From positions 1 to 6,070 of the forward strand of contig CAIXDB010000136.1 in assembly GCA_903918125.1 (NCBI GenBank): a stretch of DNA of 6,070 nucleotides. The letters are read 5' to 3'. Below the pieces are notes generated by a model that saw nothing but the letters and a program-made list of their open reading frames with translations, was not told the DNA's origin and made no database searches. The position numbers and the translations under genes were made by a program. Below, piece after piece: positions 2,391 through 6,070 of the stretch (position 1 is its first letter; each line of letters begins with the position of its first letter). Source of the DNA: an uncultured bacterium. Lineage in GTDB: Bacteria; Patescibacteria; Paceibacteria; UBA9973; Zambryskibacteraceae.

Positions 2391-2607
2391 TTTTGAAATT
2401 TTAAAATTCTTTCTCGACACAATCATTTTCGGAGCCGTTCGCTCTCTCCTGCGGAGAGCTCACTTAAGTTCTCGGTCGCGACTTGTCAAGAGCCCGTGTT
2501 ACACCGGGTCATTGACAAGACCAAGCCTTGCGAAGCTGTCACACAGCTTCTCACCTGCGAATGCTCCGAAAATGATTGTGTCTTCGACGAATTTTAAAAT
2601 TTCAAAA
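2391..2607. repeat. Large inverted-repeat element with three internal hairpins, inside the exporter operon
   Basis: Bases 2391-2435 and 2563-2607 are inverted copies of each other. The outer 19 bases match perfectly (2391-2409 with 2589-2607), then 7 bases differ, then the inner 19 match perfectly (2417-2435 with 2563-2581). A further 5-bp pairing, TTCGC (2438-2442) with GCGAA (2557-2561), extends the stem. Inside are three hairpins: CTCTCC/GGAGAG with a 3-base loop (2444-2458), CTTGTCAA/TTGACAAG (2482-2519, with an inner CCCG/CGGG pairing), and GAAGCTGT/ACAGCTTC with loop CAC (2532-2550). The element begins three bases after the macA stop and ends 8 bases before the ATPase ATG, filling almost the whole gap. 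No open frame of note lies in it. It may act as a structured RNA in the polycistronic mRNA, or be a palindromic MITE-like insertion; no target-site duplication is visible. Confidence 0.85.
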
Positions 2608-2615
2608 CCACACAC

Positions 2616-3326
2616 ATGATCGAAGTAAAAAACCTCAGAAAAGAATACCCCGAAGGCGAAACGCCGACCATCGCACTGCACGACGTGAATTTCTCAATCG
2701 CGGAAGGCGAATTCGTGTCCATCATGGGACCGTCCGGCTCGGGCAAGTCGACACTGCTTCACATTTTGTCGTTCCTTGATCGTCCGACCGGCGGTTCGTA
2801 CAAATTTCTCGGCAAAGGCATCGACGAAATGAGCGACAAAGATCTCGCGCGAGTGCGCAACGCCGACATGGGTTTCGTCTTTCAGTCGTTCAACTTGCTT
2901 TCACGACTGTCGGTGTATGATAACGTGGAGGTGCCACTCTTGTACTCGACCGTTCCACCGGCGGAGCGTCGCAAGCAAATCGAAAACGCGGTCAACTCCG
3001 TCGGTCTCGGCGAAAAATTGTTCATCGAAGCGGGGCGGCTTTCCGGTGGTCAGAAACAACGCGTAGCCATCGCTCGCGCACTCGTGACGAACCCCGGCGT
3101 GATTTTTGCCGACGAACCGACTGGTAACCTCGACTCGGTTTCCGGCGCGCAGGTCATGGAAATTTTGGAGGGACTGCACGACAAAGGTCACACCATCGTG
3201 CTCGTGACCCACGAAACGTTCACCGCCGAATTCGCCGATCGCATCATTCATATCAAAGACGGCACGGTCGAGAGTGACATGCCGGTCGAAAAATCTCGTC
3301 ACAGTAAACAAGAATTCATAAAATAA
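2616..3326 (+). CDS. MacB/LolD-type ABC transporter ATP-binding protein
   Basis: This 236-residue stand-alone nucleotide-binding subunit powers the adjacent permease at the cytoplasmic face by ATP hydrolysis. All catalytic motifs are intact: Walker A GPSGSGKST (38-46), Q-loop Q90 in VFQSFNLL, signature LSGGQ (142-146), Walker B VIFADEP (162-168, catalytic E167), D-loop NLD (171-173) and switch H199 in VTHE. The length and the sequence around the Q-loop and D-loop (ADEPTGNLDS) are typical of the LolD/MacB/FtsE group. The C-terminal 20 residues are polar and probably unstructured. In E. coli MacB the ATPase is fused to the permease; here it is a separate gene, as in many Gram-positive and candidate-phylum systems. 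The ATG follows ccacacac with no Shine-Dalgarno and lies just past the right arm of the 217-bp element. The permease start follows after one base. Confidence 0.95.
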   Translation: MIEVKNLRKEYPEGETPTIALHDVNFSIAEGEFVSIMGPSGSGKSTLLHILSFLDRPTGGSYKFLGKGIDEMSDKDLARVRNADMGFVFQSFNLLSRLSVYDNVEVPLLYSTVPPAERRKQIENAVNSVGLGEKLFIEAGRLSGGQKQRVAIARALVTNPGVIFADEPTGNLDSVSGAQVMEILEGLHDKGHTIVLVTHETFTAEFADRIIHIKDGTVESDMPVEKSRHSKQEFIK

Positions 3327-3327
3327 C

Positions 3328-4575
3328 ATGCTTGTAAAAGACGCTTTCAAAACATCTATTCGCGCGCTGACTCACGGAAAAATGAGGTCCATTTTGACCA
3401 TGCTCGGCATCGTCATCGGCATCGCCTCGGTCATTATTCTCATGTCCATCGGCCAGTCTGTGCAAGGTTTGATTTTGAACGAAGTTGAAGGCATCGGCTC
3501 GAACCTCATTTTCGTCATTCCCGGCGGTTCGACCAACGGCAAGTTCGCTGCGCCGGCCGCTTCGCAGGGTATTGTCATCAAAACGCTCGTCCAACAGGAC
3601 CTCGACGCGCTCGCTCGCGAGCCGTCCATCTCGGCAGTGACCGCCGAAGTGCGCGGACAGGGCAAAGCGGTGTACGGCGACAACAACGAGACGATTACAT
3701 ACGAAGGAATTCCGGCAAACTATTTCGTCATTCGCCAGTTTAACACGCAGGAAGGATATCCGTTCACGCAAAATGATGTCGACTCGCTGAACCATGTCGC
3801 GGTCATCGGCTCGGAGCTTGCCACGACACTTTTCGGCAACCTCGATCCGCTCGGTAAATATATTCGCCTGCAAAATGTCTCGTTCCGCGTCGTCGGTGTG
3901 CTCGAGAAAAAGGGAACCGGCGTCGGCGGTGTCGACCAAGACAATCTTGTCGTCGTGCCGATGAGCGTGGCGCAGAAACAAATGCTCGGCATCGACTATT
4001 TTAATGTCATCACAGTGCAGGCAAACCCCGCGTACACCATCGACTTCGTCACATCGCGTGTGTCGAGTGTTCTGCAAAACGATCACGGCATCACCGACCC
4101 GAACAAAGACGATTTCACTGTCGAAACGCAGGCGAGTGTGTTGTCGATACTCGGCACGGTTACGTCCGCGCTCACATTATTCCTCGCCGCCATTGCCTCC
4201 ATTTCGCTCATCGTCGGCGGTATCGGCATCATGAACATCATGCTCGTGTCGGTGACGGAACGCACGAAAGAAATCGGCCTCCGCAAAGCTGTCGGCGCAA
4301 CCGACATGGATATTTTGCAACAATTTTTGATTGAGTCGGTCTTGTTGACACTCGCCGGCGGACTCATCGGCATCGCCACCGGCGCGACCGTTGTTGGTTT
4401 GATATATTTTGTCATCTCGACATTTTTCTCCTCGCTCGGCTGGGTCTTTGCTTTTCCGCTTTCGGCAGTGTTTCTCGGTCTTGGGGTCTCCACTCTCGCC
4501 GGCATGGGTTTCGGTATTTATCCCGCCTACCAAGCCGGCAAGAAAAACCCGATCGATGCACTGCGGTATGAGTAG
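3328..4575 (+). CDS. MacB/FtsX-family ABC transporter permease
   Basis: This 415-residue membrane subunit completes the exporter. The first helix is at about 21-43, followed by a large extracytoplasmic MacB_PCD-type domain (about 45-275). Three further helices lie at about 280-308, 334-365 and 372-400, forming the FtsX domain. Family hallmarks are SILTMLGIVIGIASVI in helix 1, GGIGIMNIMLVSVTERTKEIGLRKAVGA (about 297-324) with the coupling helix, and the terminal GIYPAYQAGKKNPIDALRYE. The length is normal for permeases lacking a fused ATPase. Four helices and a large outer domain are diagnostic of the mechanotransmission-type ABC class (MacB, LolCE), which drives conformational change outside the membrane rather than classical channel transport. 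The ATG at 3328 is one base after the ATPase stop, implying translational coupling. It has no Shine-Dalgarno. The substrate is unknown; peptides, lipoproteins or antibiotics are possible. Confidence 0.94.
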   Translation: MLVKDAFKTSIRALTHGKMRSILTMLGIVIGIASVIILMSIGQSVQGLILNEVEGIGSNLIFVIPGGSTNGKFAAPAASQGIVIKTLVQQDLDALAREPSISAVTAEVRGQGKAVYGDNNETITYEGIPANYFVIRQFNTQEGYPFTQNDVDSLNHVAVIGSELATTLFGNLDPLGKYIRLQNVSFRVVGVLEKKGTGVGGVDQDNLVVVPMSVAQKQMLGIDYFNVITVQANPAYTIDFVTSRVSSVLQNDHGITDPNKDDFTVETQASVLSILGTVTSALTLFLAAIASISLIVGGIGIMNIMLVSVTERTKEIGLRKAVGATDMDILQQFLIESVLLTLAGGLIGIATGATVVGLIYFVISTFFSSLGWVFAFPLSAVFLGLGVSTLAGMGFGIYPAYQAGKKNPIDALRYE

Positions 4576-4912: not shown

Positions 4913-4950
4913 GGTCTCGCTTCGGCGGGGCCTGTTTCATTTATATTTTC
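4913..4950 (+). terminator. Intrinsic terminator of the exporter operon
   Basis: GGTCTCGC (4913-4920), loop TTCG (4921-4924) and GCGGGGCC (4925-4932) form an 8-bp stem with two G-U pairs and a stable UUCG tetraloop. An outer AAACA/TGTTT pairing may extend it. A T-rich tail (tgtttcatttatattttc) follows. It lies 16 bases after the stop of the 92-residue gene. The upstream A-run (aaaacaaaa) means it might also act weakly on the converging minus-strand transcript. Confidence 0.8.
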
Positions 4951-5032
4951 CCAACACCTCTTTCACCTCGTTAATCGGAATTGAAAACCCGATGCCGGTC
5001 GAGCCTTCGGCGCTTGGGTTGTGAAAATGGGG
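4937..5032 (-). pseudogene. C-terminal remnant of an HtrA/S1C-type serine protease
   Basis: Reading the minus strand, this stretch encodes PHFHNPSAEGSTGIGFSIPI, then NEVKEVLGKYK and a TGA stop (4937-4939). NPSAEG...GIGFSIPINEVK strongly resembles the end of the trypsin-like domain of HtrA/DegP-type proteases, where a GIGFAIPIN-like segment follows the active-site serine region. There is an in-frame TGA directly upstream (5033-5035), no start codon, and no catalytic triad or PDZ domain. The preceding bases belong to a hairpin (5022-5048) and then to the unrelated zinc-ribbon gene in another frame. The simplest reading is that the rest of the gene was deleted. The match is short (about 28 residues) and rests on recalled motifs, so it remains moderately uncertain. 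Confidence 0.5.
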
Positions 5033-5048
5033 TCAACCACTATTTTCA
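5022..5048. repeat. Hairpin-forming inverted repeat after the zinc-ribbon gene
   Basis: TGAAAAT (5022-5028) and ATTTTCA (5042-5048) are perfect inverted 7-mers, with a possible GG/CC pairing in between. It starts 3 bases past the stop of the zinc-ribbon gene on the minus strand. No T-run follows, so termination would be weak. It also marks the break point of the protease remnant. Confidence 0.45.
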
Positions 5049-5051
5049 AAA

Positions 5052-5411
5052 TCAATACGCGCTCATGTCGGAGTTGATGCCGTTGACCGTGGCTTGGATG
5101 TACGATTGCGTGGCGACGACAGCGATCCAAACGGTGACGACGGTGGAAAGTATCAAAAGTGTCCAGGCGATCGTGCCGATTTGTTTTAATTTCGGATCGG
5201 GGGATTTATAATATCGCATGCCTTTCCATCGCGTGACGTAGAGAAAACAAATCATCGGCAAAATGATGCTGAACGCATACAAGCCGACTTGCGCCCCGAC
5301 GGTCGTCGACAAGGGAGCAGAGTTTAGTTTCGTTCCGCAGTTTGGACAGAAATACCAATTCGCCAAAACCGGCTGGTGACATGTCGGACAAATGTTTGAA
5401 GTGGGTTCCAT
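5052..5411 (-). CDS. Zinc-ribbon membrane protein
   Basis: This 119-residue protein has an N-terminal four-cysteine zinc ribbon: C8-P-T-C11 and C22-P-N-C25, with the NWYFCPNCGTKL signature typical of the zinc-ribbon families often fused to membrane helices. A short linker leads to two hydrophobic segments at about 40-60 and 79-101. These flank a basic cytoplasmic loop (TRWKGMRYYKSPDPKLKQIG), so the ribbon end is probably also cytoplasmic. This arrangement is common in candidate-phylum bacteria and has no assigned function. The ribbon may mediate protein or nucleic-acid contact at the membrane. The ATG (5409-5411) follows cttcacgtaaac with no Shine-Dalgarno. The gene is 13 bp downstream of the 102-residue gene and probably in the same transcript. 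The stop is TGA, evidence against a recoded UGA. Confidence 0.85.
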   Translation of the reverse strand: MEPTSNICPTCHQPVLANWYFCPNCGTKLNSAPLSTTVGAQVGLYAFSIILPMICFLYVTRWKGMRYYKSPDPKLKQIGTIAWTLLILSTVVTVWIAVVATQSYIQATVNGINSDMSAY

Positions 5412-5992: not shown

Positions 5993-6070
5993 CGGATGAG
6001 GTGGGATTCGAACCCACGATACCGGTTAGGGTATGGCGGTTTAGTAAACCGCTATCGTCGACCACTTGAT
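5993..6070 (-). tRNA. tRNA-Ser, anticodon ACU, 5' end cut by the window edge
   Basis: A class II tRNA is read on the minus strand. The T arm is GTGGG-TTCGAAT-CCCAC (6001-6017). The 3' acceptor strand is CTCATCC (5994-6000) with discriminator G (5993). The long variable arm is ATACC/GGTAT (6019-6034). The anticodon arm GCGGT-TTACTAA-ACCGC spans 6036-6052, and the D-loop AAGTGGTCGAC closes with an ATC/GAT stem at the window edge. The centre of the 7-base loop gives anticodon ACU (6043-6045). Long variable arm plus G73 fit serine. CCA is not encoded (GCAA follows). About nine 5' bases lie outside the window. Bacterial AGY-reading serine tRNAs normally carry GCU, so A34 is odd. Confidence 0.88.

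Follow-up and report, generated by a model that had tools for sequence, protein, structure and literature searches.

What is the long inverted repeat that separates a macA-like gene from the ATPase gene behind it? The window (the whole 6,070-nucleotide stretch of DNA that was analyzed) contains a macA-ATPase-macB operon, and the initial annotation described a multi-hairpin element between the first two genes. It might be an RNA serving this operon, or alternatively a MITE-like palindromic insertion.

The Element in the Window

A repeat search places the arms at 2391-2435 and 2563-2607, 45 nt in length and 89% complementary, forming the longest inverted repeat listed for the window. The position and length of the arms are as originally described, but the count of 38 matches in 45 is not; direct counting gives 40/45, because two of the central seven positions taken as unmatched do match. 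The MFE of the element is -104 kcal/mol, compared with -53.3 ± 4.9 for 200 dinucleotide shuffles (z = -10.5), none of which folded as well. An inverted-repeat element is therefore really present between macA and the ATPase gene, and its MFE structure places three hairpins within the long stem, as had been claimed. The ATPase ATG lies at 2616, and the eight bases that separate it from the end of the right arm at 2607, CCACACAC, are seen on reading to contain no Shine-Dalgarno sequence, again in agreement with the earlier description. The features of the locus are as follows.

795-2387, + strand: macA-like membrane fusion protein (HlyD_D23, HlyD_3), the gene 5′ of the element
2391-2409, + strand: P0 left, AT-rich outer stem, starting 3 nt past the macA stop codon (2385-2387)
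2410-2416, + strand: left side of the internal loop, ending in CTCG (2413-2416), which stands at the stem foot in part of the copies
2417-2435, + strand: P1 left, inner long stem; the MFE structure adds GTTCGC (2437-2442), overlapping H1
2441-2459, + strand: H1 hairpin, GCTCTC..GAGAGC with loop CCTGC (family model), aligning with the family loop CCAGCG
2476-2481, + strand: P3 left, TCGCGA, which can pair with TTGCGA at 2528-2533 (family model)
2482-2519, + strand: H2 hairpin, CTTGTCAA / TTGACAAG stem enclosing a smaller hairpin (MFE and family model)
2520-2526, + strand: unpaired ACCAAGC 3′ of H2; family motif ACC[AG]TGC
2532-2550, + strand: H3 hairpin, GAAGCTGT-CAC-ACAGCTTC (MFE)
2563-2581, + strand: P1 right (repeat search, MFE and family model)
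2582-2588, + strand: right side of the internal loop, CTTCGAC (repeat search and MFE)
2589-2607, + strand: P0 right, AT-rich outer stem, ending 8 nt before the ATPase ATG
2616-3326, + strand: ABC ATPase (ABC_tran)
3328-4575, + strand: MacB-like permease (MacB_PCD, FtsX)

Helices H1 and P3 of the window rest on the family model (see below) and not on single-sequence MFE, which favors a neighboring hairpin in place of H1 and forms H3 in place of P3. In the first alignment, of the window copy with 12 others, H3 stands out as an insertion peculiar to the window copy.

The element scores below the gathering cut-off of every Rfam family on both strands, in keeping with its not having been recognized initially as a known RNA class; a permissive scan returned a single match (E = 4.5) that we take as chance, and identity with a riboswitch or other known RNA was rejected on these grounds. 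Between 2300 and 2700 there is no promoter-like (sigma-70-like) match. The single terminator-like match in this interval is on the minus strand and beyond the bounds of the element, and an intrinsic terminator (GC-rich stem with a T run) was rejected. So was kinship with plasmids, the sole plasmid match being 27 nt in length and AT-rich. The nearest relatives of the permease, where the organism is named, belong to Patescibacteria, Minisyncoccota/Minisyncoccia or Paceibacterota, and in one case to a "bacterium." At the far end of the window (5993-6070, minus strand) there is a tRNA truncated by the window end, scoring 30.9 bits with the Rfam tRNA model and giving no ARAGORN call.

A Dispersed Family with a Common Architecture

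We have searched for related elements in 383 genomes of the class of G001 (Candidatus Nomurabacteria), the GTDB name of which we take to be Paceibacteria. A DNA search with the element gave matches in 45 of these, mostly short, AT-rich and near chance. One locus, L050, shared the central hairpin, and its layout was the same: outer stem, first hairpin, CTTGTCAA...TTGACAAG, and then ACCATGC. A core pattern matched four of the 383 genomes, three of them containing family members, and near-matches of TTGACAAGACCRTGC in G207, G485 and G430 led to more copies. A covariance model, R1, constructed from 13 sequences including the window, found matches (E ≤ 1e-3) in 53/383 genomes, which is a floor because seven candidates were scored per genome. 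Fourteen genomes that were rescanned more deeply contained 3-26 matches apiece, although these counts may include a few opposite-strand matches to the same element. The initial annotation had suggested using the element to search related genomes, and this has revealed dispersed copies with the same architecture.

Does the window belong to this family when it has not contributed to the model? A leave-one-out model, R2 (18 sequences, window excluded), scores it at 37.7 bits (E = 2e-9) over 2413-2590 of the + strand, the next-best match scoring 11.7 bits. The central-hairpin part of this match is not independent, because the R2 sequences were reached via a chain from the central hairpin of the window; H1, P3 and the outer stem are independent of that chain.

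In a phylum-wide draw, made with stricter filters that may lose weak matches, two of 221 genomes matched (G153 and G168), both already among the class set. The family, of about 130-220 bp, has so far been seen in one class of Patescibacteria only. Among 77 viral loci chosen for a similar hairpin, R2 gave no full-length match and three core-only partial matches (E = 0.007-0.011). On viral contigs two exact patterns had no matches, and two looser hairpin patterns matched 74 and 3 stretches. We found no description of the family in the portions of the literature searched, which excluded most subscription journals.

For the analysis of individual copies, 100 matches were reduced to 85 by removing nine that lay opposite to counted elements and six identical duplicates; scores at the low end of this set are 25-31 bits. 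At L250 two family elements lie tail to tail with 13 nt between them (3001-3156, + strand, and 3170-3304, - strand).

The Fold Is Conserved More Strongly than the Sequence

The H1 loop CCAGCG occurs in 69/85 copies and the unpaired ACC[AG]TGC in 66/85. A stem of the TGTCAA/TGACA type is present in 51/85, with the exact CTTGTCAA/TTGACAAG in 4 and TTTGTCAA/TTGACAAA in 28. All three features are found in the window, as CCTGCG and ACCAAGC, each one base off the commonest form, together with CTTGTCAA/TTGACAAG.

Pairing holds in 93.4% of cells of the R2 alignment, and both partners vary in 38 of the 47 pairs. Four of five measures were reached by 0/500 shuffles, and the fifth, the pair-type count, by 4/500. 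Sliding the partners lowers pairing to 38%-50%, a control that favors the R2 structure because that structure was derived from the same sequences. These compensatory changes support the earlier suggestion of a kept fold, and the shape of the family is kept far better than its sequence.

The feet of the stem carry a further recurrent sequence. CTCG is found at the left foot in 32/85 copies and at the right foot in 27/85, compared with 4 and 3 in control stretches 60 nt away, while its reverse complement CGAG occurs at the feet in 2 and 2. Both feet carry CTCG in 21 copies, one or both in 38, and neither in 47. The left side of the internal loop in the window ends in CTCG, so that what was initially read as a kept internal loop coincides with this family feature. 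Pairing between loop and foot was rejected, as the occurrence of GCGAG in the H1 loop is not associated with CTCG feet (Fisher p = 1). The outermost stem bases differ from copy to copy but still pair, a pattern that simple transposition fails to account for. L310 and L233 have different outer stems at the same site, indicating that the outer stems did not pre-exist there.

The macA-ATPase Gap in Other Operons

Is the element a regulator dedicated to macAB? From 36 rows of orthologous gaps we removed three repeated loci and four without a parsed stop (of which at least L074 may, by its coordinates, have a longer gap), leaving 29 distinct gaps; L018 had no ATPase match. In 22 of these the gap is ≤27 nt, the stop and start often overlapping, and in the other seven it is 39-125 nt. 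Model R1 gave two weak matches at E ≤ 1 over 34 ortholog loci, neither in a macA-ATPase gap. Compared with most of these operons, the window, with its gap of 228 nt, thus contains inserted sequence. With most gaps too short, the remaining seven devoid of a model match, and copies located behind many unrelated genes, a dedicated regulator is not supported; the element is not a macAB-specific riboswitch.

Several of the longer gaps, of 79-125 nt in L044, L047, L073, L078, L079 and L082, fold into hairpins of unrelated sequence, and in L044 CCAGCG forms the loop of a small stem-loop. Palindromic inserts of several kinds may have a hot spot where macA meets the ATPase gene. L047 has a weak R1 match (2751-2888; 20.3 bits, E = 0.0012) a few bases past the permease gene, and there is another R1 match elsewhere in its genome. 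Family elements also occur in a distant macA-ATPase-macB operon of G316 (L252), the MacA and MacB of which have 29% and 44% identity to those of the window. The elements, at 3001-3168, 4915-5071 and 7044-7190, are placed before macA, between macA and the ATPase gene, and after macB.

Copies Tend to Lie behind Stop Codons in a Preferred Orientation

Among the 84 copies with a 5′ neighbor, 61 have a co-oriented gene at that side, the element lying a median of 16 nt past the stop codon (61 versus 23, p = 4e-5). At co-directional sites 42 elements run with the genes and 14 contrary to them (p = 2e-4); 16 sites are convergent and eight divergent. These counts are based upon simple ORF calls, and copies within one genome are not independent. 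An earlier count with cruder ORFs gave >> 31, >< 14, << 11 and <> 2, plus 21 overlapped by an ORF call. The genes in front of the copies are many and unrelated, and some copies are within operons; those around the copies in L240 are presumably ribosomal-protein genes.

Presence and Absence between Relatives

The comparison of related genomes shows differences in the occupation of orthologous sites. Locus L240 of G412 contains two elements, whereas G305 (L243) has one in common with it and lacks the other. In the common element a stem pair is changed on both sides, GGCAAT/ATTGCC versus GACAAT/ATTGTC.

A larger set of sites was compared between G207 and G471, which have about 75%-90% identity across much of the compared loci, using both flanks for L227 (both sites), L228, L229 and L231, and the upstream flank for L232, L233, L235 and L238. 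The site of the L228 element is empty in G471 (L301), and consists of a stop codon, two bases and CTCGC. In place of the L229 element G471 carries another palindrome (L319), a different AT-rich palindromic repeat (TAGAAAATAGAAA...) near 1403-1503. No element is visible in G471 at the counterparts of L232 and L238, judged from the upstream flank, and it has other sequence at both sites of L227. At L233/L310 and L235/L311, different element types lie behind the same gene. The element is present in both genomes at L231/L348, and that of G471 is a composite, with a shell (9447-9479 and 9656-9687) and an element of another subfamily at 9487-9639. L227 of G207 contains a similar composite (1209-1237, 1050-1203 and 1011-1035), and the two may be nested insertions or chimaeras. 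A third composite may be present at L253 (3724-3900), where a family element is immediately followed by the apparent right half of an element from a different subfamily.

These differences of presence, absence and type are the marks of elements coming, going and replacing one another. Filled and empty orthologous sites are a feature of MITEs, and with dispersed copies in other genomes and presence or absence between relatives, the MITE-like palindromic insertion that had been offered as an alternative fits best.

Which Strand Folds?

Mismatches in the outer stem, in an alignment with strand-symmetric scoring, comprise 82 A.C versus 17 G.T, and 71 C.T/T.C versus one G.A/A.G. By genome group, A.C is in excess in 22/25 and G.T in one, and over a longer stretch the counts are 122 A.C and 44 G.T. 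Read on the bottom strand, A.C and C.T/T.C become G.T and G.A, mismatches that are well tolerated by folded nucleic acids. The bias is opposite in H1, with 17 G.T and seven A.C (summed over 90 rows, a few opposite-strand matches included). Some mismatches are fixed by position within a subfamily, and hence are not independent. In the R2 alignment G.T accounts for 13/838 cells (1.6%), compared with 3.8% G.U in 44 tRNAs of the same loci, where A.C is zero by construction because ARAGORN draws accepted pairs only. From these mismatch patterns we conclude with moderate confidence that the bottom strand is probably the folded one, which is evidence against an RNA of the sense strand.

Such an RNA, in a 3′-UTR or between cistrons, would stabilize, end or process the upstream mRNA, or gate the next gene. 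It would account well for a position a median of 16 nt behind a co-oriented stop, for the very stable fold with its compensatory changes, for the G.T excess in H1, and for the element in the gap of the distant macA-ATPase pair of G316. For a sense RNA, however, the A.C excess of the outer stem is the reverse of that expected and G.T pairs are scarce relative to the tRNAs, while 22/29 orthologous gaps are too short for the element and the 5′ neighbor has another orientation in 23/84 copies. We therefore consider a sense-strand RNA unlikely.

A structured antisense RNA family read from the bottom strand would agree with the mismatch asymmetry. Neither a location after sense stops nor presence and absence at orthologous sites would be expected of it, and the lack of a sigma-70-like promoter in 2300-2700 and of an Rfam match at gathering score on both strands makes this explanation more improbable still.

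The Ends of the Element and the Search for a Mobilizing Enzyme

No mobilizing enzyme could be tied to the family in these searches. Y1/RAYT genes are present in 11/14 copy-rich genomes, but also in 7/14 genomes without matches, and of 30 Y1 loci examined to 1.5 kb from the gene, only one has a clear family element, at a distance of about 1.3 kb; RAYT was rejected as the mobilizer on this basis. Copies flanking a cognate RAYT gene, as expected of REP/RAYT systems, were not found at the 30 Y1 loci. Many of the RAYT-like Y1 transposase genes (L266-L295) are flanked by short palindromes of their own, such as AGAGGTTGAACCTCT.

Half-element queries against 60 G471 contigs and 39 loci gave 10 unpaired half matches, and the three inspected (L237, L253 and L264) fall in hairpins that are of another kind or shortened, and that enclose no gene. 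No longer, autonomous version was seen in this set, with 3/10 half matches inspected. L264 (470-545) contains a derivative of the second subfamily that has lost much of its length but remains a palindrome. Nor was a clean target duplication seen among the 85 copies; the direct CTCG at both feet of 21 may be target rather than duplication, because CTCGC is also present at the empty site L301.

A folded bottom strand behind a stop codon, recognized by structure, recalls the integron attC site, which folds as the bottom strand, has extrahelical conserved bases, and is sited behind stop codons. The family shares this placement and strand logic, and has conserved unpaired bases. The R-box-like consensus of attC is GTTRRRY / RYYYAAC. 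GTTRRRY was found at the left and right ends of 1 and 0 of 85 copies versus 2 and 5 in control stretches, and RYYYAAC in 6 and 5 versus 2 and 4. The boxes are not enriched at the ends over controls and were rejected, and the contexts are ordinary operons, including the apparent ribosomal-protein genes of L240, so that an attC-like recombination site is very unlikely. Template switching during replication can create paired changes without selection, and might explain the copy-specific outermost pairs, but a local quasi-palindrome perfected in this way and lacking a family function is hardly credible when CCAGCG is shared by 69/85 copies, ACC[AG]TGC by 66/85, and the window is matched by leave-one-out R2.

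Discussion

We conclude, with a probability of about two in three, that the element in the window is one copy of a short, non-coding, non-autonomous family of mobile DNA that is conserved in structure. It belongs to a family that is dispersed, whose fold is maintained by compensatory changes, whose copies show a preference for one orientation and for the DNA just 3′ of stop codons, and whose sites are filled or empty between relatives.

How might such an element behave? It would have inserted directly behind the macA stop codon, parting a gene pair that mostly overlaps or nearly touches in relatives. In each copy the long stem P1, with the AT-rich P0 outside it in part of them, closes H1 with its CCAGCG loop and a stacked P3/H2 hairpin, accompanied by the unpaired ACC[AG]TGC. 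A trans-acting enzyme may recognize the folded single strand by its shape and unpaired motifs and so move the element, the recognized strand being most likely the bottom one, antisense to the upstream gene. As a side effect the hairpin in the transcript could affect the ends of the macA mRNA and the expression of macB; we infer such an effect on macAB from the breaking of the macA/ATPase overlap found in relatives and from the very stable hairpin that a joint transcript, should one exist, would carry. A more specific proposal is that this is a class of mobile element inherited as a shape, in which the bottom strand folds, two motifs are unpaired, and a putative enzyme targets DNA behind stops, all within one class of Patescibacteria. 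We advance this tentatively, and think it rather doubtful as a whole.

Patescibacteria have small, tightly packed genomes, yet there are up to 26 matches to a non-coding hairpin in one of them, and some elements sit inside operons whose genes otherwise overlap. A covarying fold that extends across the class, with copies gained and lost between relatives, would provide a natural system for mobile DNA that is read by structure. There is also a caution: before a long conserved intergenic hairpin of such a genome is named a riboswitch, it should be tested as a mobile copy.

Palindrome-associated elements derived from IS200/IS605 form hairpins in the single strand and carry a short, fixed sequence at either end. 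The family resembles them in both respects, but it has a single closed long stem, and pairing of foot to loop is unsupported. With REP/REPIN sequences and their RAYT (TnpA-REP) it has in common dispersed extragenic palindromes, a short tag, and Y1/RAYT-like genes in many of the genomes. The elements are, however, longer, with multiple hairpins and a different tag, and many of the Y1 genes are accompanied by separate short palindromes. Closest among known kinds are the bacterial MITE-like palindromic repeats, which include ERIC, NEMIS/Correia, RUP and YPAL/RU-2 (PMC2229807), and in particular such repeats as YPAL, which is described as targeting or adjoining dyad symmetry and as possibly affecting upstream transcripts (PMC2229807). 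Both these repeats and our family are about 100-200 bp, non-autonomous and multi-copy, with long stem-loops and filled and empty sites (PMC2229807). Where the family differs is that no regular target duplication is seen and its sequence is nearly free outside a few motifs, whereas throughout the class its copies retain the multi-hairpin fold and two unpaired motifs.
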